DNA of 55,689 nt, from NCBI GenBank assembly GCA_003283665.1, contig QBWF01000005.1, positions 1-55,689 of the forward strand, written 5' to 3'. The number at the start of each line of letters is the position of its first letter. Positions within the stretch are counted from its first letter, which is position 1. Position numbers and translations under genes: made by a program. The notes beneath the pieces were generated by a model. It was not told the DNA's origin, searched no databases, and worked only from the letters and a program-made list of their open reading frames with translations. Of this stretch, positions 19,104 to 37,838 are shown one piece after another. Origin of the DNA: Prochlorococcus sp. AG-315-I14 (GTDB taxonomy: Bacteria; Cyanobacteriota; Cyanobacteriia; PCC-6307; Cyanobiaceae).

Positions 19104-20099
19104 ATAAAAACTATTTTATATAATAACCAACAAAAAGAAGAAGGGTTTTCTTTAATTGAATTAGTTGTGGTCGTTACTGTTCTTTCAGTATTGTCCTCAA
19201 TTGCAATACCTACATTTAATTGTGTTCAGCGAAAATCTAAAGCTGTTGCTGCATTAGCAGCTTTGAGACAGATACAATCAGAGTGTCTGATTAATAGATC
19301 TCTTCCAGGAACTCCAGGTGATTTCCTTGTAAGCGACCTGAAGGATTATCAAATCCAACCAGATGGTCCCAATAGCTGTAATGGAGCCTCTGGTAGTGGT
19401 TTGATTACTGCAATACCTACTAATACGACTCAGCTTCCTACTTTTATTCTTGCAACAAATACTAATCTTTTGAAATACAAGTATAAAGGAGTAACTAGTA
19501 ATGATCTAGTAACTTGTTTAAAAGCAATTTGTGGTTCTAATGATCAGTCAATTGAAGGCTTGATTATGAGTAATAGTGATATTGTCTACGAAGATAGCTT
19601 AACGAAGAAAGATTGTTCAGCTTATGCTTTGGTTAAGGGGGCAACATGGACAGAAGCCAATGCAAATGCACAGCAATTAGGTGGTTTTTTAACAACCCCA
19701 AATAATGAAGCTGAGAATCAATTTTTAGTAGATACTTATACTGAAAAATTATCTGAACCGGATCCTAACTGGAGCAATGGACCTCGTGCTGGAGCCTGGA
19801 TTGGGTTGAGCTCAGATAGTGGAGGTGATTTTGTTTGGGCTAATGGTAATGAATTAGATGAGGGGTATGAATCACCATATGGTGCAGGACAAGAAGAGTA
19901 TTCTACTGAATATCAACAGCAAGGAGTGGCAGGTGGTTTTCACCTGTTGATGCAAGATCCTTCTGGTCATGCTCAACAGCATGGGGGCCTAAATGGTTGG
20001 TGGCAGGAACCGGTTAATGGGCAAGAGTATTATGGGGAAGATGAAAAACCTTATTGGCCATATAACTGGGGGATTGCAGAAGTCCCTATATGTAATTAA
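19104..20099 (+). CDS. Type IV pilin-like protein with C-type-lectin-like C-terminal domain
   Basis: The frame opens after a TAA at 19101 and reads through a prepilin signal EEGFSLIELVVVVTVLSVLS (cleavage before F) with the hydrophobic pilin helix, then RKSKAVAALAALRQIQSEC and the shared pilin module (GASGSGLITAIPTNTTQLP, TFILATNT). From about residue 170 it changes to a C-type-lectin-like fold: YALVKGATWTEANANAQQLG, GGFLTTPNNEAENQFL, AWIGLSSDSGGDFVWANG, and a final NWGIAEVPIC. No ATG, GTG or TTG precedes the GFS site. Translation would need ATA 19104 or ATT 19113, or the gene is broken; a GTG at 19167 lies inside the helix and would lose the signal. It resembles the pilins at 36112 and 36939. 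Predicted role: a surface minor pilin that binds sugars or proteins (inference). Confidence 0.75.
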   Translation: MKTILYNNQQKEEGFSLIELVVVVTVLSVLSSIAIPTFNCVQRKSKAVAALAALRQIQSECLINRSLPGTPGDFLVSDLKDYQIQPDGPNSCNGASGSGLITAIPTNTTQLPTFILATNTNLLKYKYKGVTSNDLVTCLKAICGSNDQSIEGLIMSNSDIVYEDSLTKKDCSAYALVKGATWTEANANAQQLGGFLTTPNNEAENQFLVDTYTEKLSEPDPNWSNGPRAGAWIGLSSDSGGDFVWANGNELDEGYESPYGAGQEEYSTEYQQQGVAGGFHLLMQDPSGHAQQHGGLNGWWQEPVNGQEYYGEDEKPYWPYNWGIAEVPICN

Positions 20100-20212
20100 T
20101 AGAAGTTTTCTAAATGGAAAGAATAGAAACAAATCTTGCGCCTTATCCTCTTCGATAAAAATAACTTTTACTAATCCATGGCTTGAAGACTAGGCAAAAG
20201 AAAATAGTGTTC

Positions 20213-20635
20213 CTATTTGTTAGCTAAAAATTCAATATATTTTTTCAATGTATAGCCATGACAATCGCAAGGGTATTTAGCTTGTAGACCTACAGCATCA
20301 TCTTGACCTCTAAATCTTCGACAATTACAGACAAGATCAATATCTGTTCCAGCTTTAAACTCTTTCACTCTTGCTTCAAACCACTTTTTAGCTGCTTTTG
20401 GAATATTTCCATCTTCATGCCAACTCTGCCAAACCAAACTATCAAACATTTTTATTCCCTCTTCCCTTATAACTCCATCGATTCTGTCGAAGGGGTTTCT
20501 TACAGAGCATTTTGGTTCATTTATAAAGAATCTCTTTGGTGACTTTGGACCATGGATCCATGAACGCTTCTCCATGGAGCCAAACACCTCTATTTGGTCA
20601 AAATATTTCTTTGGATGGACTTCAGGTTCAGTCAT
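20213..20635 (-). CDS. Small cysteine-rich protein, possibly DUF4326-like
   Basis: 140 aa, soluble. The middle and end (NPFDRIDGVIREEGIKMFD, KWFEARVKEFKAG, LVCNCRRFRGQDDAVG, CDCHGYTLKKYIEFLA) have the order NPF..., helix, C-x-C, CHG-x-x-L that I associate with DUF4326. The resemblance is by motif order only. It sits just outside the island, convergent with the lectin pilin. Confidence 0.5.
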   Translation of the reverse strand: MTEPEVHPKKYFDQIEVFGSMEKRSWIHGPKSPKRFFINEPKCSVRNPFDRIDGVIREEGIKMFDSLVWQSWHEDGNIPKAAKKWFEARVKEFKAGTDIDLVCNCRRFRGQDDAVGLQAKYPCDCHGYTLKKYIEFLANK

Positions 20636-20752
20636 ATGAGGTAGGGCTTTCCAATCTTCGGTTGTTTTTTAAGTTGATTTCGCCTATAAATTAATTGAGG
20701 CCAAACCTCATCAAGACATAGATTGACTCGATATAGTACGAATCAATTTAAT

Positions 20753-20790
20753 AACCCCTTTAGTTATTGGAATTTCTAGAGGGGTTTCTT
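20753..20790. terminator. Hairpin terminator between the DUF4326-like gene and tRNA-Pro
   Basis: AACCCCTTTAG pairs with CTAGAGGGGTT around an AT-rich loop; the plus strand continues TCTTGTCT. It lies upstream of both the minus-strand gene and tRNA-Pro, so its parent transcript is unclear. Confidence 0.5.
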
Positions 20791-20916
20791 GTCTCAACCT
20801 GTTTTAATTTGATTAATCCTTCATAGCCAAAGACCAATTAGGTGCAACTGAATTAACACCAAGTCTTTGTTTGGTTGCTCCAGATGCGACCCAGTCATAG
20901 ACTATTATGAATGTTG

Positions 20917-20990
20917 CGGGGCGTGGCGCAGCTTGGTAGCGCGGGTGCTTTGGGAGCACTAGGTCGCAGGTTCGAATCCTGTCGCCCCGA
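20917..20990 (+). tRNA. tRNA-Pro (anticodon TGG), integration target
   Basis: 74-nt cloverleaf: acceptor CGGGGCG/CGCCCCG, D arm GCGC/GCGC, anticodon stem GGTGC/GCACT with loop TTTGGGA (anticodon TGG), T loop GTTCGAATC, discriminator A. Its 3' 46 nt plus one base recur exactly at 35868-35914, so the left copy now has an element-derived 3' half. Confidence 0.97.
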
Positions 20991-20991
20991 T
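20945..20991 (+). repeat. Left attachment repeat (attL), 47 bp
   Basis: From GTGCTTTGGGAGCACTAGG through the T arm to CGCCCCGAT; identical to 35868-35914. It covers anticodon arm, variable loop, T arm and acceptor of tRNA-Pro, the usual core for tyrosine-recombinase integration. Confidence 0.92.
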
Positions 20992-20998
20992 CAGTCAG

Positions 20999-21025
20999 AG
21001 ACAGGTTTCCCAGCCTGTCTTTTTT
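20999..21025 (+). terminator. Rho-independent terminator of tRNA-Pro, inside the element
   Basis: AGACAGG/CCTGTCT stem with loop TTTCCCAG, followed by TTTTTT. It starts 9 nt after the tRNA and lies on the element side of the core repeat. No equivalent follows the right copy, so the element supplies the tRNA terminator. Confidence 0.8.
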
Positions 21026-21041
21026 AATGGCTATTTTTTGT

Positions 21042-21065
21042 TGTCCCCAAAAGTGTCCCCAAAAG
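21042..21065 (+). repeat. Tandem 12-bp repeat next to attL
   Basis: TGTCCCCAAAAG occurs twice without a gap. Short direct repeats next to the core are where integrase arm sites are expected; function inferred. Confidence 0.75.
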
Positions 21066-21136
21066 TTAGATGGAATAAGGGAAGTTAACTGGATTTAACG
21101 GACTTAGGCATAATGGAAGAATGGATCAGCTTATAA

Positions 21137-21463
21137 ATGGCAAACTCTAATTGGCTTTCAAGGTGGAAGGAGGAACCAGTAAATTCAGATCCTCCCGAAA
21201 TCGTAGAAAAAGAAGAGGAAGAACTATATAACAATTGGGGGCCTGGAGAATATTCTGATGGCTTATCAAAAGGTGAACAATATACAATTTTAAATTTATA
21301 TGATAACAGCAGTCGAGATCCTGGAATGGTTAGCACTGTTGCTAACAAACAATTTAACACCCAAGAGCTTCGTGATAGGGGAGGAACTCATATCTTTTAT
21401 GGACTTGCAGAAATTAAATTAAATCAGAATAATTATGTGGACGATAGTGAGTTAGATGAATAA
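21137..21463 (+). CDS. Hypothetical acidic protein, first gene of the island
   Basis: 108 aa from ATG 21137 (MANSNWLSRWKEEPVNSDPP); strongly acidic (EIVEKEEEELYNNWG) with no membrane helix or cysteine pair. No family recognised. The position right beside the attachment site is where an integrase is often found, but nothing in the sequence is integrase-like. Confidence 0.55.
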   Translation: MANSNWLSRWKEEPVNSDPPEIVEKEEEELYNNWGPGEYSDGLSKGEQYTILNLYDNSSRDPGMVSTVANKQFNTQELRDRGGTHIFYGLAEIKLNQNNYVDDSELDE

Positions 21464-21698
21464 GGTTAAGGATATTATAATAGTAAGTTTTTTATAATGT
21501 GAAGAAAGAGTAATCTGACTAATTAATGAAAATATTTAATTAATTTATAATCAGTATTTGCTATTTATTTAGACTGATTATCAGTTGACAAGCATATTTG
21601 GATTAGGCTTCTATCCATTGGAAACTTAATCATCACCCTAAAAATAAAAGTGTTAAACCAATGGGGCTATTGTTTTAATCTTTACGATATATGATTTT

Positions 21699-23462
21699 TT
21701 ATACTTTGCAAACTCTTTCAAGCTCATAAATTGTTGTTAGTTGTTTAGATATTAATTGTTTTCCATATTCCCTTAAAGTTATCATTCCATCTGCTATTGC
21801 AATATCTTCTATTTCAAGATCTGTCATGCCCTTTGAAATCGCATTTTTTATATTTCTGTTAATTATTAACAACTCAAATACTCCTATTCTTCCTATATAT
21901 CCGAACCCCATGCAATTTTTGCAAAGTGTTGTATTATCTATATTCCTTTTTTCTTCTGGTACAACATTCGCATATCTAATTAATGTATCAGCTTTGATAC
22001 CAGTTGTATATGAATCTTCTTCTTTAATTACTTGTACATTACTACAAGAGTTGCAGACACATCTCATAAGTCTTTGAGCTAAAATAGCTCTAACTGAAGC
22101 ATTTAACTTATACTTTGGTACTTCCATATCTAGTAGTCTAGTTAAGGAACTGGCAGAACTATTTGCATGCAATGTGGTGAAAACAAGGTGTCCTGTTTCT
22201 GATGCATCCATTGAGGCGTTTGCAGTCTCTGGGTCACGAGTCTCTCCAATTAAAATAACGTCAGGGTCATGCCTCATAAATGTTCTTAGAAGATATGGAA
22301 ATGTCTGATTTTTAGATTTATTAACTTGAGCTTGAACTATATCCCCCCCTAAATCATATTCAATTGGATCTTCGGCTGTAACTATTTTTATTTCTCCTGT
22401 ATCTATTTCTCTCAAAGCAGCAGCAAGAGTTGTAGATTTACCTGATCCTGTTGGTCCACAAACAATAATAATTCCATTTTGTAGGGAAATTAAATTCCTA
22501 AAAGATTTTCTAATATTTGCAGACTTAATTAAAGTATTTAAATCTAATAAAGATGAATGACTTTTTAAAAGTCTCAAAACCATAGATTCTCCATTCTTGC
22601 CTGGAAGAGTTGAACATCTAAATTCAAGCTTATTGTTATCAAGAACTTTATAAATTTTCCCATCCTGGCTAGCTCTTTTCTCTGAAACATCCATATCGGC
22701 TAAGTTTTTTAAACTTGCAACTAATTGAGATCCTTCCTCTCTTTTTATATTTATGAAGTGCTGTAGTATACCATCTTTCCTTGTACGTATTACATAATTA
22801 TCCTCTTTTGGTTCAATATGAATATCAGAAAAGTCTTTTTTATATGATTCTTTCAATATATGATTTACCATCTCTAATACTTCAGAACTATTTTTTTCTG
22901 ATAACAACTCACTATTATCTTGCATATTGATTTTTTTAGAGATCTCTTCTGTAAAAGAAAGACTTGGTTTATTCGCTAAAATATTATTTTTTCTTAGAGA
23001 ATTATAGCTTTTATTTCTGGAGGCAGAATTTATATTCTCATTATTGATATTATTACTATCTTTATATTTCTTTTTCGATTTGTTATTTGTTTGATCAACT
23101 TCTTCTGAAAAAGGTTCCCAGACAGAGTAAAAGAATCCACGGTCTGACTTGTCAATTTCAAATCCTTCTTCAAACCCCTTCGCAATAAGAATCAACCAAG
23201 GTAAAGCTCCAATTGCTTTTTCACGAGCTAGAAATTGATCATTAGAAAAATTATTGAATACAGAAATTAATAACGGAATAAAATCAATAATAATAAAGAA
23301 AAGAATTGAGTAGGCAAAAGCTCGTCTTCGATAATAACTTGATTTTCTTTTTAGATTGTCACTAAAAAGCTGAATAAACCACATTAAAGTTGGTATCACC
23401 CAACACATAAGAATCTTGTAAGTACTGGAGAGGAGTATCTCTAACACCAGAATCCTAACCAA
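21699..23462 (-). CDS. PilB/GspE-type assembly ATPase with N-terminal membrane helices
   Basis: 587 aa. Residues 1-70 hold two hydrophobic segments (YKILMCWVIPTLMWFIQLF; AFAYSILFFIIIDFIPLLIS), which is unusual because PilB is normally cytosolic. A polar, asparagine-rich linker follows (about 115-190). The ATPase core begins near FSDIHIEPKED (211) with Walker A GPTGSGKSTT (336-345), Asp box EDPIEYDLGG, Walker B and His box (DPDVILIGETRDPETA, TTLHANSSASSLTRLLDM), and a tetracysteine zinc motif (CVCNSC and LCKNC). It powers pilin polymerisation or type II-like secretion. It is paralogous to the protein at 41505 but lacks that protein's N-terminal domain. No PilC platform protein is nearby. Confidence 0.88.
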   Translation of the reverse strand: MVRILVLEILLSSTYKILMCWVIPTLMWFIQLFSDNLKRKSSYYRRRAFAYSILFFIIIDFIPLLISVFNNFSNDQFLAREKAIGALPWLILIAKGFEEGFEIDKSDRGFFYSVWEPFSEEVDQTNNKSKKKYKDSNNINNENINSASRNKSYNSLRKNNILANKPSLSFTEEISKKINMQDNSELLSEKNSSEVLEMVNHILKESYKKDFSDIHIEPKEDNYVIRTRKDGILQHFINIKREEGSQLVASLKNLADMDVSEKRASQDGKIYKVLDNNKLEFRCSTLPGKNGESMVLRLLKSHSSLLDLNTLIKSANIRKSFRNLISLQNGIIIVCGPTGSGKSTTLAAALREIDTGEIKIVTAEDPIEYDLGGDIVQAQVNKSKNQTFPYLLRTFMRHDPDVILIGETRDPETANASMDASETGHLVFTTLHANSSASSLTRLLDMEVPKYKLNASVRAILAQRLMRCVCNSCSNVQVIKEEDSYTTGIKADTLIRYANVVPEEKRNIDNTTLCKNCMGFGYIGRIGVFELLIINRNIKNAISKGMTDLEIEDIAIADGMITLREYGKQLISKQLTTIYELERVCKV

Positions 23463-23739
23463 ACTTTTATAAGCCTAATAAGTAATAATGTTTACGCAAA
23501 AGTTAATTAGAAAATCGTAATCTAACTATTTAAATATATATACAGTTTGAAGTTTAATTATTTATATTCAAACTAAATTATGGATAGATAAGAAAAACAA
23601 GTTGATTAAAAATCCTCAGTTACCAGGCTGGACAGCTAGTGGTTCGTGGAAATGTCTAGTAGGGAAATAGGTTCTTTCTAGGGGTGCTCAAGTGGGGCAT
23701 CTGAAAGGCGCGGATTCTGTCTAGCGTTAGCCTAAATAG

Positions 23740-23830
23740 TTGTGGACAGTGGTTAATAAGCAGTTATAGCAGTCGTTTTCGCGTCAATAGTGGTTAATTT
23801 GTCAACAGATGAAATAGAGCGTGTCCACAA
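23740..23830. repeat. Inverted and direct repeat cluster in a 381-bp gap
   Basis: TTGTGGACA (23740-23748) and TGTCCACAA (23822-23830) are exact inverted copies; GTGGTTAAT occurs at 23749-23757 and 23790-23798. The rest of 23463-23843 has no gene. The region lies between the divergent PilB-like gene and a secreted protein gene and may be a regulatory or protein-binding site. Confidence 0.5.
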
Positions 23831-23843
23831 TTAATATGCGTGA

Positions 23844-24086
23844 ATGAAACGCTTCTTACTACTCGCCCTGACTGCTGGACTTCTCTCTCCTATCGCTGCT
23901 AAGGCTGAAACTCATTGGTTGGTGCTTCATTACAGAACACAGGCCGATGATGCTGTAAGCAGCCTTGAATCAATAAAAATGCCAAGTGCAGAAGTATGTG
24001 AGAGGGAAGGTCGAAGATGGGAAAAAAGTCCCACCCATGGAGATAGAAGTAAATTCAGGAGATTTCATTGCGTCATAGGGGAATAG
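23844..24086 (+). CDS. Small secreted protein
   Basis: 80 aa with a signal peptide, MKRFLLLALTAGLLSPIAAK, and a likely cleavage near AKA-ET. The mature 60 residues have two cysteines (VCEREG, HCVIGE) that could form a disulfide. The signal peptide is almost the same as that of the 40465 protein, although the mature parts differ. Function unknown. Confidence 0.65.
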   Translation: MKRFLLLALTAGLLSPIAAKAETHWLVLHYRTQADDAVSSLESIKMPSAEVCEREGRRWEKSPTHGDRSKFRRFHCVIGE

Positions 24087-24087
24087 T

Positions 24088-24114
24088 CGCGGGTCCAGAC
24101 TTTTAAGAACCGCG
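24088..24114. terminator. Possible bidirectional hairpin
   Basis: CGCGG (24088-24092) pairs with CCGCG (24110-24114) around a T-rich loop, exactly between the convergent 23844 and 24103 genes. The stem is short and lacks a good T-tract, so support is moderate. Confidence 0.35.
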
Positions 24115-24324
24115 TGGAATGACTCCATTTACCTTCCATTGAACAATTGATGATAGATATTCAGGTAGTCGAGGCTCGCCAACAGGCTTCCAACAAAGAT
24201 GATCGATACCTCTAATTTCACAAATATATTGATCTAATAATCCGCGTTTTTTTAACGAATAAAGGGAACTTCTAGATTTAAAACCTAACTTTTTGCTCGC
24301 TTCTGTAAAAGATAAAATAGACAT
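24103..24324 (-). CDS. Short HTH DNA-binding protein, excisionase-like
   Basis: 73 aa: SFTEASKKLGFKSRSSLYSL then KKRGLLDQYI has the form of a MerR/excisionase-type helix-turn-helix; CWKPVGEPRLPEYLSSIVQW completes it. Proteins of this size and layout act as recombination directionality factors or small regulators in mobile elements. Role inferred from size, motif and location in the island. Confidence 0.6.
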   Translation of the reverse strand: MSILSFTEASKKLGFKSRSSLYSLKKRGLLDQYICEIRGIDHLCWKPVGEPRLPEYLSSIVQWKVNGVIPRGS

Positions 24325-24505
24325 AATCGAAAACCATTTAGTTGACTAGGGTGTCCAAAGTGAGATTACTTAAAGGCTCTCTATCACAGCTTAAATTGCC
24401 TTATACGAAATCAAATTAGTTAAGTTGTCCATAGTTTTAAAAGGGTGTCGCTAGAAAAATTCCGAGGTGCGAATAAACCCGCAATGTATTGCTACAAGGG
24501 ACCCG

Positions 24506-24685
24506 CTACGCAGCCATAAGTTCGTCATCATCTAATTCTTCATGATGTAGTAGACCATTCTCTTTCAAGCCCTCTACTATCTTTTGAGCAACAAAATCTG
24601 GATCGTCCGAACCTGTTGAATCAAAAAGATCGGCCAATACAGTTGCCACAAAGAACTCATCAAAATCAGAGGATGTCTTTTTCAT
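24506..24685 (-). CDS. Small acidic protein, 59 aa
   Basis: ATG at 24685: MKKTSSDFDEFFVATVLADL, FDSTGSDDPDFVAQKIVEGL, then an acidic end HHEELDDDELMAA. Predicted all-helical and soluble. No family recognised. Confidence 0.5.
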   Translation of the reverse strand: MKKTSSDFDEFFVATVLADLFDSTGSDDPDFVAQKIVEGLKENGLLHHEELDDDELMAA

Positions 24686-24778
24686 TATTCTTCAGTCCAT
24701 CAATTCTTTTTAACGCTATTTAGACAATTTAGAAAGAGTGAAAGGTTGAGAGAATCACGCAATTTAAGCGTGGCATGA

Positions 24779-25177
24779 TTACTGTGCCCAAGGACAGGGA
24801 TCTGCATATCTTTCATAAATACTTGCCAAACCATTTACCACCATAAACTGTTGAACATTAACTCCATCTATCGATAATTCTGCGACTGTTCTTCCATAGC
24901 GATCTGTCGTGATACGACGAATAGATTCACGTCTACCAGCTACTAAATCATTCAAGAAGTCCCTTGCCTCTTTTGCAGGAATTGGATCAGCTCGACTTCC
25001 TCGAAGCTCAGGAGTGTCAATACAAGCAAGTCTTATCTTTTCTCCCTCTGTCGTTGTACAAGTATCTCCGTCATAACAACTATCAATAAATAATGATAGA
25101 AAGAAAGGCTTTATTTTTGCTTTTCTTTCAGTATTATGTGCTGTCACAGCAGCAGCTTTATCAAGATGGGTACTCAT
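24779..25177 (-). CDS. Nuclease-domain (SNase-like) ORF, chimeric and probably inactive for secretion
   Basis: 132 aa. From about residue 31 it is a staphylococcal-nuclease-type domain with IRLACIDTPELRGSRAD and ITTDRYGRTVAELSIDGVN, retaining the Arg, Glu and Arg catalytic positions. DNA is more than 90% identical by eye to the 3' half of the gene at 39220. The first ~30 residues are not nuclease: they are the antisense of a transporter fragment (see 25098-25520), so the signal peptide and YHYH part are gone. Best read as a truncated duplicate fused to foreign DNA. Confidence 0.75.
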   Translation of the reverse strand: MSTHLDKAAAVTAHNTERKAKIKPFFLSLFIDSCYDGDTCTTTEGEKIRLACIDTPELRGSRADPIPAKEARDFLNDLVAGRRESIRRITTDRYGRTVAELSIDGVNVQQFMVVNGLASIYERYADPCPWAQ

Positions 25178-25520
25178 AAATTCTGATCTAAATCCCTTTC
25201 AAACTACTGAAATTCGATTAATTGGTAGCATTGTTGGGCTCCTTCCTTTTCTCAGGAAAGAATTGACTGATTCCGTCAGAAATCTACCTTTGAAAAATAA
25301 ATTTAGTCTTTTATATGCAACATTTTTGGGGACAAATATAGGTATCTTATTACAGCAAAATGTCTTCAAATTATTGCCTATTGGACTCGGTTGGACACTT
25401 TTAAGTACTTCACCAGTAATTGCGCTTTTCTTTGCAAGAGCCGAGGGGGAAGAAGTTAATTGGAAAACCTATGTATTAACTGCAACGACAATATTAGGTG
25501 TCGGCATAGTATTTATTTGA
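25098..25520 (+). pseudogene. 3' fragment of an EamA/DMT-family transporter gene
   Basis: A frame open from about 25098 with no start codon encodes GFIFAFLSVLCAVTAAALSR, WVLINSDLNPFQTTEIRLIG, SIVGLLPFL, then ATFLGTNIGILLQQNVFKLL, LGWTLLSTSPVIALFFARAE, ILGVGIVFI. This is the second EamA repeat (NPF-x-x-T-E-I-R and L-S-T-S-P). An in-frame TTG at 25263 would give 85 aa. Its 5' part overlaps, on the opposite strand, the N-terminus of the nuclease copy, so both were joined at one breakpoint near 25090. Not expected to be functional. Confidence 0.75.
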
Positions 25521-25596
25521 TAATGAGTTTGGCCTTTAGTAACGTATGCTTATTGAATAAAGACTCCTGATAATCATCAGGAAGACCTTATAAGAT

Positions 25597-25956
25597 ATGA
25601 CACTAAAAAATGTTTTAGGATCTGATCTCAAATCTTGTAGTTGTAATCCTATGACTGGATGGTATCGAGATGGCAGATGCCAAACAGATGCAACAGATAT
25701 GGGTATGCATACTGTTTGTGCGGTTATGACCGAACAATTTCTTTCTTATAGCAAGGCTCAAGGAAATGATTTATCTACACCGCAAATGGGATTTCCAGGA
25801 CTAAAGGAAGGCGATAACTGGTGTCTTTGTGCTCCAAGATGGAAGGAGGCTTATCAGGATGGTATGGCTCCCTTTATTGACTTAGAAGCGACAGAAGAGA
25901 GTACATTGACTATCATCTCACTTGAAATTTTAAAAGAGTTTTCTCATCGAAAATAG
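25597..25956 (+). CDS. DUF2237 family protein
   Basis: The 119-aa protein covers the whole DUF2237 domain: NVLGSDLKSCSCNPMTGWYR, DGRCQTDATDMGMHTVCAVM, TEQFLSYSKAQGNDLSTPQ, GDNWCLCAPRWKEAYQDGMA. Conserved Cys and His residues are present. Function is unknown; the family is common in cyanobacteria and proteobacteria. It appears intact within the island. Confidence 0.88.
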   Translation: MTLKNVLGSDLKSCSCNPMTGWYRDGRCQTDATDMGMHTVCAVMTEQFLSYSKAQGNDLSTPQMGFPGLKEGDNWCLCAPRWKEAYQDGMAPFIDLEATEESTLTIISLEILKEFSHRK

Positions 25957-26090
25957 TTAAATATTTGAAGCTTGCAATTAAATGCTCGGATGATGAACAA
26001 GTAATTGAGTTTTTTATAAACCTGCGGTGATCTATTTACCGTAGAAAGTGCCGCATATTGCGATAAATACGTTTAAGGCATAATGGGTGA

Positions 26091-26348: not shown

Positions 26349-26357
26349 TGGAAACTA

Positions 26358-26807: not shown

Positions 26808-26884
26808 TGTGTATACAATTAATCCTCCGAATAAATAAAACAATGCTTTTTCTTATAAAGTGAAAGAGAAGAAAAAATGCTCCT

Positions 26885-27016: not shown

Positions 27017-27080
27017 ACCTTGTCTTTAATCAATTATTTATTTATAGATATATACTGGTACTTTTTTTCTGTAGTCATTT

Positions 27081-27848: not shown

Positions 27849-27914
27849 TTGACCATATAAACAATAATAGTATATTTGTATTCTCTTATTCCCATGGCAA
27901 AAAAACTACTAAGC

Positions 27915-30053: not shown

Positions 30054-30085
30054 ATTAGAAAAGATTTACTTTATAACAAGAAATT

Positions 30086-30868: not shown

Positions 30869-30952
30869 CAAATAGACTGACGTTTAAAGTGATTTTTTAG
30901 TTAACGTAAATATAATTCTTACGACTAAAAGAAAGATTTCATATGAAAAGTT

Positions 30953-31969
30953 TTAATTTAAAATTGTCTTTAAAGAAATAGTCATATCTTCTAATGTTTT
31001 TTTAAAAGGAGTTGGCTCCCAATCGAAAATTGAAATAGTTTCGGATATATCTGCTCCATATCGACCTCTTTTAATCATAGAGGAAGTGCTTTTCATATCT
31101 CTATTGAACATTGCTAGAGAATTTATGACTTGAGTAGGGACCAAACTCTTTGGAGATTTATTAAATCCCAGTTCTCTTAAAATTTCTGAAATTTCTAAGA
31201 ATGGAATACCTTCTTGAGACGTTGCAATTATTCTTTTATGATCACTTTGGTTATTAGTTAATGATTGTACATGCAACTTCGCTACATCTCTTACATCAAC
31301 CACAGTGAAATAGATATCTGGTAAAGCTGGAAATTTACCGGTAATCATTTTTGTAATTAAACTCGCTGATATACCTTCTATATCATTACTAAGTAATGGT
31401 CCAAAAACCATTCCAGGGTGAATAGTAGTCATTGAAAATGACTCGTCGGTTTGGTTGTCAACAAAATCCCAAGCTGCTTTTTCAGCTATTGTCTTGCTTT
31501 TTATATAAGCCCCTACATCCTTTGAGGTATCAGTCCAATCATTAGTATTGCAGTAGCTCTTGCTATGTCCGTAAGCTATAGCTCCCATTGATGAAGTGAG
31601 GACTGCCTTTTTAACTTTTGATTTATGCGCAGCTTTTAATGCCCTTAATGTTCCTTCTAATGCAGGGGTGATTAGTTCATTTTCATTCTTTGGCTCTTCG
31701 ACAAAGCATGGTGAAGCGATATGAATAAGATAATCACAATCTGAAGCCGCATCGTCCCAGCCTTCATCCTTAAGTAAATTCAATTTACAAAAATCAAGAT
31801 TGTTATTGTTAAATTCTGTACCTAACGATTTTCTTACTTCATTCTCTCGATTTAGATCTCTTAGAGATCCTTTTACTTCATATCCATTATTTAATAATTC
31901 CAAAATGCAATGCAGAGCAATATACCCTGAAGCACCAGTTACTAGAACTTTTCCTTGATTAACAGTCAT
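30953..31969 (-). CDS. Extended SDR, dihydroflavonol-4-reductase-like NAD(P)-dependent reductase
   Basis: 338 aa. The Rossmann motif KVLVTGASGYIALHCILEL is followed by DYLIHIASPCF, KAVLTSSMGAIAYG and the catalytic YIKSKTIAEKAAW (Y-x3-K). This is the DFR/ketoreductase branch of extended SDRs, acting on ketone or aldehyde substrates in the cytosol; substrate unknown. It faces thiD convergently, 84 bp away. Likely horizontally acquired with the island. Confidence 0.85.
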   Translation of the reverse strand: MTVNQGKVLVTGASGYIALHCILELLNNGYEVKGSLRDLNRENEVRKSLGTEFNNNNLDFCKLNLLKDEGWDDAASDCDYLIHIASPCFVEEPKNENELITPALEGTLRALKAAHKSKVKKAVLTSSMGAIAYGHSKSYCNTNDWTDTSKDVGAYIKSKTIAEKAAWDFVDNQTDESFSMTTIHPGMVFGPLLSNDIEGISASLITKMITGKFPALPDIYFTVVDVRDVAKLHVQSLTNNQSDHKRIIATSQEGIPFLEISEILRELGFNKSPKSLVPTQVINSLAMFNRDMKSTSSMIKRGRYGADISETISIFDWEPTPFKKTLEDMTISLKTILN

Positions 31970-32054
31970 TAGATAATATTATCAATAAATGATCGGCCTG
32001 TTCTTTTACTTTGTATACATAACTGAATTAAAGGGATTTAACGGGCCAATAAAA

Positions 32055-32243
32055 ATGCTCTTAAGATATGGAACTACTTTTAAGTTCAAAGTGAAAAAGG
32101 TTATTTCATTAGTTTTCGCACTTTCAGTTATTGCTAGTCCATCTCTTGCTTGGGGTTGGGGAGGAGAAGGTGGATGCCCTCATTCAAAAGACAAAACAAA
32201 TCAAGATGCTAAAACTGAGCAAGTAGAAGAAACTGACGCTTAA
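32055..32243 (+). CDS. Small secreted protein, Trp/Gly-rich start
   Basis: 62 aa from ATG 32055 with a signal peptide (KFKVKKVISLVFALSVIASP, cleaved near SLA-WGW). The mature part starts WGWGGEGGCPHSKDK and is acidic and polar. An upstream TTG/ATG frame back to 31989 is open, but would put the signal peptide inside. No family recognised. Confidence 0.55.
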   Translation: MLLRYGTTFKFKVKKVISLVFALSVIASPSLAWGWGGEGGCPHSKDKTNQDAKTEQVEETDA

Positions 32244-32351
32244 GTTGGAAGACCAGTTAGACTAGACAGAGTTTTCAATTGAGTATTAGTGCCGAGAGCT
32301 ACAAAAGAGAGTTTGAGCCTTTAATAGAGAAAATATGGCCCATTCAGGAAC

Positions 32352-32468
32352 ATGACCAGAAAAGAGTTCATGGATAAGTTCTTTGATCTTTGCAAGGACG
32401 CTCAAGAAGAAATTCCACCAAATGTGATTGCAGAAATTCTCAGAGATTATGCAGATAGGTTGGATTAG
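32352..32468 (+). CDS. Tiny soluble protein, 38 aa, first of a micro-operon
   Basis: MTRKEFMDKFFDLCKDAQEE followed by IPPNVIAEILRDYADRLD: a compact helical protein. Its TAG abuts the next ATG (TAGATG). The ILRDYADRL end resembles VMLRDVADAF in the 32833 protein. Confidence 0.5.
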   Translation: MTRKEFMDKFFDLCKDAQEEIPPNVIAEILRDYADRLD

Positions 32469-32693
32469 ATGAAAATACTCTTTGCTTTTGTTCTTGGTCT
32501 TCTTTTGTTTTTCTGTCCTATTGCAGTTCAAGCAGAAGAGGTTGAATTAATGCACAAAGAGGAAATACTTGAAGCACCTTCAGAAGACGCACTAAATTAT
32601 TTACTGAGTGAGGACATATATCTAGGCACTCTTTCTTGGCAAGGAAATAAAGTTTCTACCAAATTTAATTACGACAAGAAAAAGAAGAAGTGA
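32469..32693 (+). CDS. Small secreted protein with Lys-rich tail
   Basis: 74 aa: signal peptide MKILFAFVLGLLLFFCPIAV with cleavage near VQA-EE; mature acidic part (EVELMHKEEILEAPSEDALN) and a terminal run of lysines. Its start abuts the preceding stop and its TGA overlaps the next GTG. Confidence 0.6.
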   Translation: MKILFAFVLGLLLFFCPIAVQAEEVELMHKEEILEAPSEDALNYLLSEDIYLGTLSWQGNKVSTKFNYDKKKKK

Positions 32694-32785
32694 TAAAGCC
32701 TAAATTCAAGTGGTTTATTACCTTCTATGTGATCAGCCCTCTGGTTTTGATATTTACTGTCTACGGATATTTAATTCTTAAGTGA
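32690..32785 (+). CDS. Tiny membrane protein, 31 aa, GTG start
   Basis: GTG at 32690 overlaps the previous TGA (GTGA). Product: MIKPKFKWFITFYVISPLVL then IFTVYGYLILK, one membrane helix with a basic N-terminus. The overlap supports it as the third cistron. Confidence 0.45.
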   Translation: MIKPKFKWFITFYVISPLVLIFTVYGYLILK

Positions 32786-32832
32786 AGGCGATAGAAATGC
32801 TGCATGATGTGTTGATTAACGCCTATTAATTG

Positions 32833-33045
32833 ATGACTGATAAGAGTAAAGAAACATGGCAACCAACAGATGCGCAAGTCGATAAAATAATTCTTCCTGC
32901 CATGCAGGGGCTCGCACAGCAATGCGCTGATTATATTAACGAACTTCAATGTCCTACTGGATTTATTGCTGTCATGCTTAGGGATGTTGCAGATGCATTC
33001 GAGAACCCAGCGCCCGAAGGCGATAGCGATTGTTCTTGTTGCTAA
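32833..33045 (+). CDS. Small protein with C-terminal Cys cluster
   Basis: 70 aa from ATG 32833: MTDKSKETWQPTDAQVDKII, a helical centre (MQGLAQQCADYINELQCPTG) and an end EGDSDCSCC that could bind metal. The next gene starts 2 bp after its stop. No family recognised. Confidence 0.55.
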   Translation: MTDKSKETWQPTDAQVDKIILPAMQGLAQQCADYINELQCPTGFIAVMLRDVADAFENPAPEGDSDCSCC

Positions 33046-33047
33046 TA

Positions 33048-33269
33048 ATGTCTTTACGTCATCCCCTTTTTCATAGAACCATTTTGGCTCTTCTTTTAGA
33101 TGTTCAAGAAGCAGGGTACGAACCACCAACGCTGGAAAATATAGAAGCCTTTAAAATTGAGCTGCTCCAGGAGTTAGAGGAAGGCATAACTCCCATAATT
33201 GAAAGATGTTGCTATCAGAATCCTTCAGTCAAAAGGAATGAAGAGAAATCAAACCTACCTAAGTGTTAA
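33048..33269 (+). CDS. Hypothetical small helical protein
   Basis: 73 aa from ATG 33048, MSLRHPLFHRTILALLLDVQ, EAGYEPPTLENIEAFKIELL, with three cysteines in its second half. Starts 2 bp after the Cys-cluster gene, so both are one operon. Confidence 0.5.
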   Translation: MSLRHPLFHRTILALLLDVQEAGYEPPTLENIEAFKIELLQELEEGITPIIERCCYQNPSVKRNEEKSNLPKC

Positions 33270-33458
33270 AGGGTCCTTCTCATAGCATTCTATGATTGAC
33301 AGCCAATTTCTTTTTGAACCACTGGGGCTGACTTAGGTCAGTCCATTTTATGGGCTAACTACTCAGAAAAAGACATCCATCTTTACTCTGAAGTGATTAG
33401 TCTTGGATCTTTAAAGAAAGATTGATACTCCATCACAATTCTTTGTAAAAATTGATAC

Positions 33459-33872
33459 TTTTCCACAGAAGGTGATTCTCGCTGCTCATTCTTCTTTGAA
33501 TAGAAAACGAATCTAAAATCAAAAATAACGTGAAGTATGATTTTGTGGGAATGCTTGGCCAAAGTTAATTAAAAGGTTTTTCTCTTCATTTTCAAAAGAA
33601 GAGAAATGAGAATTTTGATTAATGCTTTCTTCTTACAATTATGTGACTCAAAGCTGTTTGAAGAATAAAGATTTAAAGTGATATCGCTTACCAAGACTTA
33701 CAAGTTCCCTGAATGAGAACTTTAAAAGAAGCTAGATAAACCTATTTTTAGCTTTTAAGATACTCAATGAGAACCATAAGAGTAACTTATGGTACATATA
33801 AGAAGCTCTAATTGATCACTTTTTCAGCCTTTCCCCACGAGTAAATGACAACTTTTCCACATGTTTTCCACA
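33459..33872. promoter_or_regulatory. DnaA-box-like cluster in an 829-bp non-coding region
   Basis: Exact TTTTCCACA at 33459-33467, 33853-33861 and 33864-33872; the last two are 11 bp apart, one helical turn. An inverted repeat CCATAAG/CTTATGG lies near 33773-33791. The gap 33270-34098 has no gene. TTTTCCACA is the DnaA box form reported in cyanobacteria; use as an origin or DnaA-binding site is inferred. Confidence 0.4.
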
Positions 33873-34098
33873 GGATGAAAATAACTACTCCTTCTGAGAC
33901 TTAGTTCAGTGGAAAAACTAAAGAAACGTGCTTTTTGATCTACTTGAAAGTCAAATTCAGCTTTAAACTTATTCTTTAGCTTGACATCCTTTCATAGCAA
34001 AGGATCTCACTTTATGGATTCATGAGAATGTTTTTTTTTGCTTCCTTGACTTGATTCTGAAAATGTGAGGAACTGGAGTCTGACGAGTAAAGGTTTGA

Positions 34099-34389
34099 AT
34101 GCAAAGTTTGGCACTAGAAACGATTCAACAAAGAGAAACAGATGAAGTAACTAGTGCCTATGTAAATAATGAGGATGATGTATTAGTCAGTTTTATTCAA
34201 GAAATTCCTGAGTATCTCCAAGAGGCCATGTCTACTTTTATAGATAAACATCCTAATTGGGATCAATATCGACTAATGCAGGCTGCTATATCTGGTTACC
34301 TTTTACAGAAAGGGGGTGATTCAAGAGAAATCCACCGTCTTTACTTTAAAAGTATGTTTTGTAAAAAAGCCTTTGGTCAAATTCTATGA
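34099..34389 (+). CDS. DUF2811 family protein (copy 1)
   Basis: 96 aa. The core VSFIQEIPEYLQEAMSTFID, KHPNWDQYRLMQAAISGYLL, QKG and REIHRLYFKSMF follows DUF2811. Function unknown. Its TGA overlaps the ATG of a second DUF2811 gene (ATGA), so they are coupled. Confidence 0.78.
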   Translation: MQSLALETIQQRETDEVTSAYVNNEDDVLVSFIQEIPEYLQEAMSTFIDKHPNWDQYRLMQAAISGYLLQKGGDSREIHRLYFKSMFCKKAFGQIL

Positions 34390-34586
34390 ATATGGAAACG
34401 GAGATTCCAGAGATCCTTTTGAACAAGATGAAGGATTTCATTGAATCAAGCCCTGAGTACGATCAGCACAGTTTCATAACTTCAGCCGTGAATAACTTCT
34501 TATACAAAAATGGGTGTGAAGATAGGCGAGTTTCAGAGAATTATTTAAACGATATTTTTGATCAGTCTCCCTCTCAATCAACCTGA
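34386..34586 (+). CDS. DUF2811 family protein (copy 2)
   Basis: 66 aa: METEIPEILLNKMKDFIESS, PEYDQHSFITSAVNNFLYKN, ENYLNDIF. The same order of elements as copy 1 but strongly diverged, so the duplication is old or the two were acquired as a pair. Overlaps copy 1 by 4 nt. Confidence 0.75.
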   Translation: MNMETEIPEILLNKMKDFIESSPEYDQHSFITSAVNNFLYKNGCEDRRVSENYLNDIFDQSPSQST

Positions 34587-34824
34587 ATTGTGTCTTTAAG
34601 TTTTTGATTAATCAAAATGGCGAATGTTATATGCAATATCAACAAAAAAGAGCATAACTTCTATATATCTGCAATTCTTCTCCAACTCCAACAATATGAG
34701 CGATAGCGATTATTTCTTGTTGCTTAGTCTCTAGTGCCCAGATGAAAAGCATCAGGGGTAACAAAGCAGAGACTCGGTGTTAATTCAATTGCAATAAATT
34801 GGGCTTTGGCTCTTACGTAATAAA

Positions 34825-34842
34825 CCCCGCCTTGCGACGGGG
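34825..34842 (-). terminator. Terminator of the SET-domain gene
   Basis: CCCCG/CGGGG stem; on the minus strand TTTATTA follows. It lies about 100 bp past the stop of the minus-strand SET gene. The remainder of 34587-34944 holds nothing recognisable. Confidence 0.6.
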
Positions 34843-34944
34843 CTGAAAAGTGATCATTTTGTACAAGCTATGACGAAAAGGATCAGTGTCTTTTCATTTC
34901 TCAATACTGTGATGTGATTGCATGTCCTTCTGATTTACAAAAAA

Positions 34945-35229
34945 TTAATCCCTATCCATCTCTAAAAGATAGGGCGCAATAAATCCATTGTAATCAAGCT
35001 TCTTTTTTGATGATAATCCCTTCCATCCATTGACATATTTCCTGCATTCATATTCTCCGCATAAGCAAGGATTTGGAAAAAAATCGATTGAATAATTTCT
35101 CATCGCATAATCAAAAGTAATTTCTTCACCTTTGTCGATACTCCTGTAGGCAATGAAAACATGAGCCCCAGATGCGTTTACCGAAATGCCGCATGAAGGG
35201 CTGCATGAGTGATTGACCTTGCTGATCAA
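34945..35229 (-). pseudogene. SET-domain protein, N-terminally truncated
   Basis: 94 aa from a TTG. It holds only the C-terminal half of a SET domain: SKVNHSCSPSCGISVN, GEEITFDYAM and a post-SET zinc motif PCLCGEYECRKYVNGW. The N-terminal strands of the SET fold are missing; upstream the frame is open for some 20 more codons but not SET-like. SET proteins methylate lysine using S-adenosylmethionine; this copy lacks part of the binding site and is probably inactive. Confidence 0.7.
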
Positions 35230-35495
35230 ACCCCCATGCTGAACATGGCGCGAAGCCGAGATCTGCGAGGCGTGGGAGTTGTTTGATTTGTTTAAGGAAA
35301 TAGCTTGCTGACGTTTTGCTGACGTTTTTTGTCTAAAGGCATGGTTAGCCTCTTGATGGAATTAAGCTATTAAAGCGATTCAAGGGAAGGATGTAGTAAT
35401 TGCTACATTTTTGTTTCATTTTATATTTAGTTGATTCGCAGTAAACGGTATCAACCGCTACACTTTTAGTACGTTCGTTTTCCTCGCGGAAATGC

Positions 35496-35822
35496 ATGTT
35501 TGGACAACAGGGAACGGGGTTGTCTCTACAGAGAAACGTTATGAATCATCTAGCTTTAATAAAAAAGAGTCTCAGCAAGAAGGATCTACTTCATCAAGCA
35601 GAATTGGTTTTAGCTTCAAAGCCGTGTAAGGAAAAATCAGCTGAATTGAATATCCGTTTGATAGAGCAAAAAGCCAAAAGAAAAAATTTACATCAATTAG
35701 AATTGCTCTTAGCTTCTAAGAGTTCAAAAACTTCTTCTGCATTTTTAAATAGTCGTTTAGCAGAGAAAGAATCTCATAGTAAAAGGCTTCATTCAGCACA
35801 AATGATCTCAATGACTAAATAG
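35496..35822 (+). CDS. Hypothetical protein with internal repeats
   Basis: 108 aa, basic. A unit of about 33 residues occurs twice and starts a third time: LLHQAELVLASKPCKEKSAE, then NLHQLELLLASKSSKTSSAF, then RLHSAQMIS. Predicted helical. Last gene before the right attachment repeat. No family recognised. Confidence 0.5.
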   Translation: MFGQQGTGLSLQRNVMNHLALIKKSLSKKDLLHQAELVLASKPCKEKSAELNIRLIEQKAKRKNLHQLELLLASKSSKTSSAFLNSRLAEKESHSKRLHSAQMISMTK

Positions 35823-35867
35823 GATTGTGATTGTTATCCTTTAATTTATTTGCATAATTAAAGATTC

Positions 35868-35914
35868 GTGCTTTGGGAGCACTAGGTCGCAGGTTCGAAT
35901 CCTGTCGCCCCGAT
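35868..35914 (+). repeat. Right attachment repeat (attR), partial tRNA-Pro
   Basis: 47 bp identical to 20945-20991. It lacks the acceptor 5' strand and D arm, so it is not a functional tRNA; it marks the host-side 3' end left after integration. Confidence 0.92.
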
Positions 35915-35941
35915 TGGGATCTCAAGGAATGGGTTTTTGGT

Positions 35942-35963
35942 TTGTATCCTAGTTGTATCCTAG
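35942..35963 (+). repeat. Tandem 11-bp repeat beyond attR
   Basis: TTGTATCCTAG occurs twice without a gap, 28 bp after the core repeat. It mirrors the tandem 12-mer beside attL, though the sequences differ. Confidence 0.7.
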
Positions 35964-36111
35964 GAACGGTTAAAAGTTGATTTTGCTAGGCCTTTTGGCT
36001 TTTGGGATTTAAATATTTTTTGTTTGTATATATATTCTAGGTTGCATAGTTGACTTTCTTTGTTCTTGTCAGACTCATATCAATCAATATTCCTCCTTTA
36101 GGAGATCCCTG

Positions 36112-36942
36112 ATGCTTTGGGTTAAGGAATACAAGGAAGAAGGTTTCTCTTTGATAGAGCTTGTTTTAGTAGTGGCTGTTCTTGGCGTTTTAAGTGCTAT
36201 TGCTATTCCATCATTTAATTGTTTTCAGAGAAAATCTAGAGCAACTGCAGCATTGGCTGCGATAAAACTAGTGCAATCGGAGTGTGCTGTAAAGAAAGCA
36301 GATACTGGGAGCATTGGGAATTTTACTCAGAACAATCTTAATTCTTATCAAATCCAATCTGATGGATCTAATGGTTGTGGTGGTGCATCAGGAACTGGAT
36401 TAATTAGTGCAATACCTAGCGATACGAATGTATTGCCTACTTTTATTCTTGCGACGAACACAAATCAATTAACCTTTAGTTTCAAGGGACAAAATGGGAT
36501 CGCAGTCGGTGAATGTCTAAAATTAATCTGTGGTAACCAGCTCGGTAATAATAACCAAGGGGGAAGTGGAGATAATGATCAAGGTGATGAATCCCAAGAG
36601 TTAGAAGAATGTCAATATGTCCCAATGGATAATTTGGCTAATGCCAAATGGATGTATCACATGTGTGAGGAGGCCAGGCAGAAAGTAAATCTATGTCAAC
36701 ACCCTTATGTTCATCATTCTGCTGGCCCACCTTTCCCTGTTGTTTCTTGCACTTCGTTATGCACTTTGGCTTACCAACAAAGTTGGTCGTCTAGTTGGAC
36801 TCAATATCACTGTAATGATAATAGAAACGCTGAACCCCCTTGGCTTAGTGGTGGAGATAATGCTCAAATGAATAGCCTAGGCTTTGACAAAGATTCTATA
36901 ATTCAGCACTTCAAAGATAATGGTTATCAGAATAGTCCATGA
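36112..36942 (+). CDS. Type IV pilin-like protein with cysteine-rich C-terminal domain (1)
   Basis: 276 aa. Prepilin signal EEGFSLIELVLVVAVLGVLS follows a 10-residue leader; the pilin module (IPSFNCFQRKSRATAALAA, NLNSYQIQSDGSNGCGGAS, LPTFILATNTNQLTFSFKGQ, LKLICG) runs to about residue 145. After a Gly/Asn/Asp-rich linker comes a distinct Cys-rich end (LEECQYV, MYHMCEEARQKVNLCQHPY, VVSCTSLCTLAYQQS, QYHCNDN) that could be disulfide-bonded. The start has a good ribosome site (TTTAGGAG). TGA overlaps the next pilin's ATG. Likely exported and assembled by a PilB-type machine. Confidence 0.85.
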   Translation: MLWVKEYKEEGFSLIELVLVVAVLGVLSAIAIPSFNCFQRKSRATAALAAIKLVQSECAVKKADTGSIGNFTQNNLNSYQIQSDGSNGCGGASGTGLISAIPSDTNVLPTFILATNTNQLTFSFKGQNGIAVGECLKLICGNQLGNNNQGGSGDNDQGDESQELEECQYVPMDNLANAKWMYHMCEEARQKVNLCQHPYVHHSAGPPFPVVSCTSLCTLAYQQSWSSSWTQYHCNDNRNAEPPWLSGGDNAQMNSLGFDKDSIIQHFKDNGYQNSP

Positions 36943-37838
36943 GTTTGTTCCATGTTTTAATAAAAAAAAAGGATGGATTTTCACTGATAGAACTTGTCGT
37001 AGTAGTTACTGTCCTTGGCGTTTTAAGTGCTATTGCTATTCCATCGTTTAATTGTTTTCAGAGGAAATCAAAAGCAACTGCTGCACTTGCAGCTATGAGA
37101 CAAATACAAACTGAGTGTATATCAAACAAAACAGACGATAGAGCTACTGTGAATTTCTCTCCAAGTAATCTTAATTCTTATCAGATTCAATCAGATGGTT
37201 CAAATAGTTGTAGTGGTGCTTCAGGTAGTGGATTGATAAGTGCAATACCTACCGATACAAACACATTGCCTACTTTTATACTTGCAACGAGTACAAATCA
37301 ACTAAGTTATGACTTCAAGGGAGAGAGTGGAATTAGATTACAAGAATGTTTGGATTTGATTTGTGGAGGAACTACTAGAGGTAATAGTAATGGTTTTATC
37401 GGTAATGAAAACGACCCAATTCCTACTTCTTATCCAGAGGAGATTGTAAGCAACAACTATTGCATTTCACATGGAAAAATTACTGGAGGAAGGAAAACTA
37501 TGTGTGGTGCCGATTCTCAGCATACCAATGAACAACATGCCCACTGGCATTGTGAGGAGGCTGACGATGGAGGCGATTGGCGGCATGTGACTGAGTGTGA
37601 GCAGGCTCAAAAAGACTATGGATGTCAATGGAACTCAGAAAAAGGTAAATTTAATCTTTCCGAGGATGGGAAAACATGTGCTGAACAAATGAACGATACC
37701 GCTTGCAATCCAACGTGGACTAAGCGCTTAGTTTGTGCAAGATTTCTCTTTTGGCCATCCAGTTATCGTGCCTGCCTTGGACAAACCTCTGGATGCATTA
37801 AAGATTATGAGGATCCTCGTTGGGGAGCTGATAATTGA
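36939..37838 (+). CDS. Type IV pilin-like protein with cysteine-rich C-terminal domain (2)
   Basis: 299 aa. Leader MSLFHVLIKKKD, then GFSLIELVVVVTVLGVLSAI and the same module as the two other pilins (IPSFNCFQRKSKATAALAAM, SDGSNSCSGASGSGLISAIP, LPTFILATSTNQLSYDFKGE). From about residue 160 the sequence differs: CISHGKITGGRKTMC, HWHCEEADDGGDWRHVTECE, DYGCQWNSEKGKF, CAEQMNDTACNPTW, with about ten cysteines. Coupled to the preceding pilin by an ATGA overlap, so both are made together. Confidence 0.85.
   Translation: MSLFHVLIKKKDGFSLIELVVVVTVLGVLSAIAIPSFNCFQRKSKATAALAAMRQIQTECISNKTDDRATVNFSPSNLNSYQIQSDGSNSCSGASGSGLISAIPTDTNTLPTFILATSTNQLSYDFKGESGIRLQECLDLICGGTTRGNSNGFIGNENDPIPTSYPEEIVSNNYCISHGKITGGRKTMCGADSQHTNEQHAHWHCEEADDGGDWRHVTECEQAQKDYGCQWNSEKGKFNLSEDGKTCAEQMNDTACNPTWTKRLVCARFLFWPSSYRACLGQTSGCIKDYEDPRWGADN

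Follow-up and report, generated by a model that had tools for sequence, protein, structure and literature searches.

Modular pilins in a Prochlorococcus contig: one prepilin module, several C-terminal tips and probable repeated exchange between them

Three genes in a 55,689-nucleotide stretch of DNA from Prochlorococcus sp. AG-315-I14 (contig QBWF01000005.1, referred to below in its whole length as the window) encode proteins which begin with one prepilin module and end in three unlike tips. An earlier note on this DNA had proposed domain swapping onto a fixed pilus-entry module, and this exchange at a sharp border holds for the family to which the genes belong, as seen from steps in DNA identity, incongruence of tips with the module tree and, in one complete genome, a gene of mosaic make-up. 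Comparison of the homologues showed that recombination has apparently separated and rejoined modules and tips on many occasions, with borders close to the module end. The proteins are likely to be modular type IV pilins, and most probably minor pilins, in which such recombination has been repeated.

The module and its tips in the window

A 131-residue module running from GFSLIE to ICG is common to the three open frames, here called copies 1, 2 and 3 (Table 1), and both PF07963 (the prepilin motif) and TIGR02532 score above their cut-offs in all three. The prepilin signal and the roughly 130 shared residues that had been read by eye align throughout, including YQIQ-DG, GASG-G, LPTFILAT and C-L-ICG, and the observation of a shared module with three differing ends was confirmed. 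Only the copy 1 tip matched Lectin_C (PF00059; 27.5 bits, cut-off 22.6, residues 180 to 255, 66 of the 107 profile positions). Behind the pilin module copies 2 and 3 carry a further 135 and 156 residues, respectively, without a known domain: neither tip gave any Pfam match, and PHROGs and NCBIfam returned the prepilin part only. There are 10 cysteines in the 156 residues of the copy 3 tip and 6 in the 135 of copy 2, against 2 in the 187 of copy 1, and the description of one lectin-like and two different cysteine-rich tips was borne out. A profile search of the window with the module gave these three frames and no fourth N-module (next match E = 1.5). Matches of the pilins to the sequences of solved structures were confined to the N-terminal helix region of the module; none was found for the copy 2 tip, and the weak antibody-chain matches that were all the copy 3 tip gave were taken as chance.

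The border between module and tip is sharp at the DNA level. Copies 2 and 3, the start of copy 3 overlapping the end of copy 2 by 4 nucleotides (nt), were compared in 60-nt windows counted from the prepilin G. Identity was 83% at nt 240–300 and 270–330, 73% at 300–360, 60% at 330–390, 34% at 360–420 and 22% at 390–450. The fall from 73% to 34% is thus completed inside about 60 nt, and these values make the drop step-like, starting some tens of nt 5' of the ICG codons (the module ends at nt 393). Identity drops at the same place between copies 1 and 3 and between copies 1 and 2, so that alignment of the three genes places the predicted border near the module end.

Module and tip across the family

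The family was collected by a search with the copy 3 N-module, from which the best 120 of 203 proteins were used. Copy 1 was among these; with copies 2 and 3 added there were 122 distinct sequences, 106 of which had a module and a tip long enough for comparison. The border was set by profile and tips were taken as similar at E ≤ 1e-3. N-modules at least 85% alike were found in 133 pairs, and in 49 of these the tips had no similarity. Conversely, 27 pairs had tips that were at least 80% alike and exceeded the likeness of their N-modules by at least 15 points. The check on homologues that the earlier note had asked for, whether tips vary on a constant module, is answered by these two sets. Relative to the module end, the change-point had a median of 0 residues (range −38 to +4) in 123 pairs with N-modules at least 80% alike and no tip match, and of +5 residues (range −63 to +26) in the 27 pairs with like tips.

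Tips were clustered for 108 proteins, two relatives of the copy 3 tip having been added and a third, partial one excluded. This gave 19 families of closer tips (labelled F0, F1 and so on) and, at the wider level, 12 groups between which no similarity was detected. The largest group comprises 74 proteins and contains all 25 of the listed proteins with a precomputed Lectin_C match; for its remaining members the lectin label follows from linkage by similarity only. When the 19 families are mapped onto the careful N-module tree they require 43 changes (minimum 18, shuffled mean 78.5), and the 12 groups require 23 (minimum 11). Judged by this tree, tips are clustered on the module yet appear far from tracking it. 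The starred branches of the tree force at least six changes in F0, five in F7, four each in F1 and F4, three in F3 and two each in F2, F5, F6 and F9, so that the family of copy 1, F6, also needs two, and F8 (copy 3) and F10 (copy 2) are compatible with one origin. Placement of the lectin-tip family F7 as a single module clade was rejected by the approximately unbiased (AU) test (p-AU 9.9e-6). Where the ratio of non-synonymous to synonymous substitution (dN/dS) was computable for modules and tips, it was 0.12–0.49 and hence well under 1. A generic scan of genome contigs for the prepilin motif gave at least 79 loci, most of which are not relatives in the strict sense.

The best named relatives are from Prochlorococcus sp. 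MIT 0801. G+C content is about 35% across most of the window, and we take its organism to be probably a member of low-light clade I. Among 400 genomes drawn from the family of genome G001, 13 had the N-module at E ≤ 1e-20. Copies were most numerous in G139 (eight; 1,929,203 bp) and G182 (five; 2,046,712 bp), each on one long contig; these two are referred to as the complete relatives. The tips in G139 belong to F18, F0, F1, F7, F6, F1 and F3, the last at 1331 kb and off the island described below, and there is a divergent prepilin at 1089 kb. Those in G182 belong to F4, F0 (with an internal stop) and F6, together with an F11-like tip of 64 residues only and a decayed piece at 884 kb. The window has F6, F10, F8 and a remnant of F3. 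Two orphan tip pieces were also noted in G182, at 526733–526987 and 616441–616566.

Identity steps like those of the window are present within the single contig of G139. Two pilins at 1100 and 1152 kb, 51 kb apart, have 93–100% identity in the 60-nt windows between nt −60 and 360, falling to 66% at nt 330–390 and 36% at 360–420; their modules are 94% alike and their tips, both of the lectin group, yet only 36%. A third pilin, at 1098 kb, has a propeller-like tip related to that of P0079, a protein that matches PD40, and is 81–95% identical to two lectin-tipped copies up to nt 330 and about 30–35% thereafter. In the three pairs tested homology starts 120–262 nt upstream of the module, which means that promoter and leader belong to the shared part.

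The mosaic gene is the G139 orthologue of copy 1. Copy 1 has whole-length orthologues in G139 (72%) and G182 (74%), at a locus conserved in the three genomes. In a maximum chi-square test for conversion the first 290 nt of the G139 gene agree with an island copy at 71 of the 86 informative sites and the part that follows at 39 of 283; as the split is trivially significant when the tip of the paralogue is unrelated, only the share left of it was used. Identity to the island copy is 85–95% in windows at nt 0–240 and about 55% beyond nt 240, and identity to the G182 orthologue is 60–75% over the first 240 nt and 70–91% over most of the tip. On this evidence the first 220–290 nt of the module at the conserved locus of G139 have apparently been overwritten by island-like sequence and the tip has been kept, for which gene conversion via the conserved 5' part would be the simplest reading. 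The module had been called fixed; it is indeed shared, but with its 5' part replaced in this way it would not be fixed.

In the window itself the case is clearest for copy 2. Its N-module resembles those of P0030 (82%) and P0015 (81%), which carry tips of the lectin-group families F0 and F7, and on the careful tree these three N-modules are joined by that of P0006 in a four-member group supported at 100/96. The grouping with lectin-tipped modules supports a change of tip, in one direction or the other, in the copy 2 lineage. The copy 2 tip (F10) was found in one other protein only, P0006, at 95%. Tips like that of copy 3 occur at 65–69% on P0124, P0125 and P0126, whose N-modules are 47–56% like that of copy 3, which suggests exchange. 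A swap of copy 3 had also been read from the topology of a quick tree that split F8, but the AU test found a better tree holding F8 together; the careful tree was accordingly used for the counts, and no swap of copy 3 is claimed from topology. As for the swapping proposed for the window genes, it thus stands for copy 2 through the group of four and is left in doubt for copy 3, for which a single origin was not rejected. P0005 has the appearance of a natural chimera between the kinds represented by copies 2 and 3, but is given little weight as it is one sequence on an 817-nt contig. With copy 3 as the sole query no relative was found on viral contigs.

The tRNA-Pro border, the variable island and the pilus genes

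To the left of tRNA-Pro gene order is conserved between the window, G139 and G182, and to the right there is hardly any conserved order. The first 18.6 kb of the window, up to copy 1, lie in one order with both complete relatives, at about 67–79% identity in the larger pieces; tRNA-Pro follows copy 1 in all three genomes, and F6, the lectin-tip family of this locus, is the only tip family they have in common. Swapping is not borne out for copy 1: both complete relatives have its locus in synteny and with the lectin tip retained, close to the case, each tip tracking its module, which the earlier note had named as telling against it.

The start given for copy 1 at 19104 is merely the first base after a stop, though the frame itself exists. 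Between the preceding stop and the prepilin motif (19101–19145) there is no in-frame ATG, GTG or TTG, and both orthologues have ATG at the position aligned with the missing start. Copy 1 may have an unusual start, be an impaired gene or contain a sequencing error. Its dN/dS toward the two orthologues (0.17 and 0.16 in the tip, 0.49 and 0.16 in the N-module) is low, which speaks against plain decay.

To the right of tRNA-Pro the window, G139 and G182 have pilins with different tips, in different orientations and at different distances, and by this comparison copies 2 and 3 lie within a hypervariable island. The earlier note had placed an attachment site, which is the 47-nt repeat pair of Table 1, between copies 1 and 2 and had concluded that the locus was one pilin cluster before insertion. 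A single cluster split in this way was not supported when the flanks were compared with those of G139 and G182; given that pilins occur on both sides of tRNA-Pro in all three genomes, a former two-sided cluster is unsupported rather than strictly excluded. The nearest pilin past the most distal repeat is at 0.2 kb in the window, 6.9 kb in G139 and 5.8 kb in G182.

With the tRNA included and at most two mismatches allowed, there are four copies of the tRNA-Pro repeat in G139 and three in G182; the window has two. Near one distal repeat of G139 there is a candidate tyrosine recombinase, which at 22.2 bits falls short of the PF00589 cut-off (27.1). Two of the G182 copies each have a relative of this protein next to them (E 6e-41 and 5e-35), and in the two genomes the candidates are 79–152 nt from their repeats. 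No relative of the G139 candidate was found in the window (best E = 0.64), where PF00589 was not run on every frame. Most pilins of both complete relatives are outside the recombinase-bearing intervals. The interval between the repeats of the window contains thiamine, DUF2237, 2Fe-2S ferredoxin, SET and nuclease genes and the second of two PilB-type ATPases. The orphan lectin tip in this interval is 91% like the P0050 tip over 81 residues and 75% like P0072 over 99 residues, with no similarity further upstream; orphan pieces of this kind may be remnants or tip donors.

Table 1 Features of the window discussed in the text
Feature	Position	Strand	Remarks
Copy 1, modular pilin open frame	19104–20099	+	N-module 19143–19535; C-type lectin tip 19536–20096; conserved locus
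tRNA-Pro (tgg)	20917–20990	+	Divides the conserved left flank from the variable island; position shared by G139 and G182
47-nt repeat, left copy	20945–20991	+	3' part of tRNA-Pro
Orphan C-terminal lectin tip (F3)	21137–21463	+	Without N-module; 147 nt past tRNA-Pro end
Second PilB-type ATPase	21699–23462	−	Between the repeats; T2SSE E = 3e-102; 77% to G139 1089656–1091376
47-nt repeat, right copy	35868–35914	+	197 nt before copy 2
Copy 2, modular pilin	36112–36942	+	N-module 36142–36534; Cys-rich tip 36535–36939, kind unassigned
Copy 3, modular pilin	36939–37838	+	N-module 36975–37367; Cys-rich tip 37368–37835
PilB-type pilus ATPase	41493–43157	+	T2SSE E = 2.3e-97; 76% to G139 1057304–1058931

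Several smaller features of the region were observed. A stretch at 20175–20657, with a 140-residue frame lacking a Pfam match, is 93–96% identical to island pieces of G139 and G182; its flank is at about 74%, and the excess points to recently moved DNA. The Rfam small RNA Yfr13 was matched at 20697–20772, and this DNA recurs elsewhere in the islands of G139 and G182 at 85–89%. An SNase nuclease stretch is present twice, at 24774–25073 and 39215–39514 (94% over 300 nt), flanking the right repeat, and a 91-nt inverted repeat (39094–39184 and 40400–40490, 84% complementary) surrounds a nuclease and a channel-like frame. The right part of the window, with urease and urea-type transporter genes, has only small matching pieces in the compared regions of G139 and G182; the urease region directly follows pilB, and an Rfam match to the 5' ureB small RNA lies at 44473–44759 on the strand opposite the urease alpha frame.

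The G139 counterpart of the PilB-type ATPase downstream of copy 3 adjoins PilC (1055094–1056077), and that of the second ATPase adjoins a 304-residue prepilin frame. Secretin and PilC are present in both complete relatives. In G139 PilC, PilB, secretin and two further prepilin frames lie about 143–154 kb from tRNA-Pro on the island side, and the corresponding pilus genes of G182 lie about 91–105 kb from it. In a survey of 41 genomes of the genus (module match at E ≤ 1e-15) secretin was found in all six genomes with a module match and in 2 of the 35 without (Fisher p = 6e-6), and PilC in five of the six and 3 of the 35. When matches over at least 110 positions are counted, secretin is in 3 of 3 genomes versus 5 of 38 (p = 0.005); put the other way, these longer matches are in three of the eight secretin genomes versus none of the 33 others.

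Canonical C-type lectins bind sugars through an EPN or QPD motif. Each motif occurs in one of the 74 lectin-group tips, and with both nearly absent the usual calcium-type sugar binding is not supported. We infer display of the tips on the pilus, and binding by them, from the modular pilin family described in PMC8179133. The shared 131 residues would thereby be the pilin module, cleaved and packed into the filament, and the C-terminal part, often a C-type lectin, would be a domain displayed for binding. The genes form a multi-copy family beside and inside the tRNA-Pro island. The tips would then decide what the pilus adheres to, so that reassortment could diversify adhesion or recognition. A wholly new tip might arrive on incoming DNA joined via one homologous N-module, or by illegitimate joining after duplication.

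Alternatives, implications and known systems

Some results weigh against repeated recombination of pilin module and tip, or limit how far it reaches. The pairs counted across the family are not mutually independent, 43 of the 105 inner branches of the N-module tree are not resolved, and its bootstrap had not settled. The two known members of the copy 2 tip family form one clade on that tree, and for F8, the family of copy 3, one origin together with its module was not rejected (p-AU 0.93). The test favoured conversion in G139 and showed no bias toward it in the window: left of the split the counts for copy 1 were 44 of 92 and 48 of 111 and, against G139, 65 of 127, and the G182 orthologue was likewise without bias (48 of 97, 46 of 95 and 70 of 180). 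Nor was a shared 3' anchor found among the four G139 island copies, the six pairs being 6–39% alike in the 150 nt past the stop, where shuffled letters are about 28% alike. No PilC was found among the window frames scanned, and three of the six module matches in the genus survey span just the first 72–87 positions, mostly the general prepilin part.

Many homologues, moreover, are on short metagenome contigs in which assembly chimeras are possible. That the apparent swaps are nothing but chimeras joining different genes is nevertheless very improbable: contigs of about 1–3 kb with few family members are common among the homologues, and P0005 is an example of such doubtful material, but the strongest cases lie within one 1.93-Mb contig and the swapped families have many independent members. 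About as poor an account of the family is duplication and divergence without recombination, in which selection kept the module while the tips changed until no likeness could be recognized. It would account for the purifying selection seen on the modules, for the clustering of tip families on the N-module tree and for the gradient of related families within the lectin group. Divergence alone, however, cannot yield the 27 pairs with like tips on unlike modules, the rejected F7 clade, DNA that is identical up to a step, or the mosaic gene; the account is contradicted for the family, though it could still hold for copy 3.

Another possibility is gain and loss of whole pilin genes through elements that insert at tRNA-Pro, intragenic exchange being rare. 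The copy 1 locus is the only one, among intact pilins, common to the three genomes, each genome has two to four copies of the tRNA-Pro 3' end, three distal ones with recombinase candidates nearby, and in the window an orphan tip lies 147 nt inside the left end, all of which such traffic would explain. It would leave the identity steps within genes and the G139 mosaic unexplained, most pilins of G139 and G182 are outside the candidate intervals, and the window matches include no relative of the G139 recombinase. As the chief cause it is unlikely, but gain and loss of whole genes at tRNA-Pro can act alongside exchange. Hypermutation of lectin tips by a diversity-generating retroelement is scarcely credible: C-type lectin folds are a common target of these elements, but a reverse transcriptase (PF00078) was found in neither complete relative, and the tips differ by whole domains and not by point changes at one site.

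Recombination of module and tip over evolutionary time is therefore preferred. A stronger version of it, for which the chances seem slim, is active switching within a population or perhaps a clone. Promoter, leader and N-module would be the conserved anchor for the recombination that exchanges the displayed tip, and the orphan tips of the window and of G182, among other partial copies, would serve as its reservoir. If true, this would give a combinatorial system of recognition to an organism that ranks among the most abundant of all photosynthetic ones. The family is in any case a natural reassortment series, in which close relatives within a single free-living ocean genus combine like bases with many tips and like tips with many bases. 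With it one can test which ligands, on the surfaces of phage, grazers, particles or partners, cause pilus tips to turn over in the open ocean, and whether adhesins are changed in general by conversion via a conserved pilin module.

Among the titles listed in a literature search none dealt with a recombining pilin family of this kind, which is weak evidence of novelty as most subscription journals lay outside the search. In Neisseria, pilin antigenic variation proceeds by gene conversion among pilin copies and partial copies. Conversion among pilin copies and the presence of partial gene copies in the genome are common to the two systems. Unlike in Neisseria, whole domains differ here, the converted part is the N-module, and neither a donor array nor change within a clone was seen. 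The setting resembles that of Prochlorococcus tycheposons, as these are outlined in PMC10872708, in the variable region bordered by a tRNA, the repeats of the tRNA 3' end and the adjoining recombinase candidates of G139 and G182; it differs in that no recombinase was found in the window and the pilins are mostly outside recombinase-bearing intervals. The pilin clusters of marine picocyanobacteria (PilA1-PilE, PilA2-PilV and PilA3-PilW; PMC7994388) are from the same organisms, with similarly patchy pilus genes, PilA1 being in 6 of 28 low-light I single-cell genomes in Table 1 of that paper. As described there, a comparison that is by description only, they are characterized by a GFTLxE motif rather than by a modular build with differing tips. 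The closest likeness is to modular type IV pilins, of which PMC8179133 gives 264 architectures in more than 1,200 proteins. According to the account given there, PilB and PilC of Streptococcus sanguinis likewise have a prepilin motif and a pilin module with an unrelated domain, lectin-type ones included, grafted behind it. That work, as far as its available text goes, is a catalogue across species, whereas here one module occurs in many paralogues of one genus with module and tip recombined. Modular pilins were thus already known, and what appears to be new is a multi-copy family that recombines module against tip.

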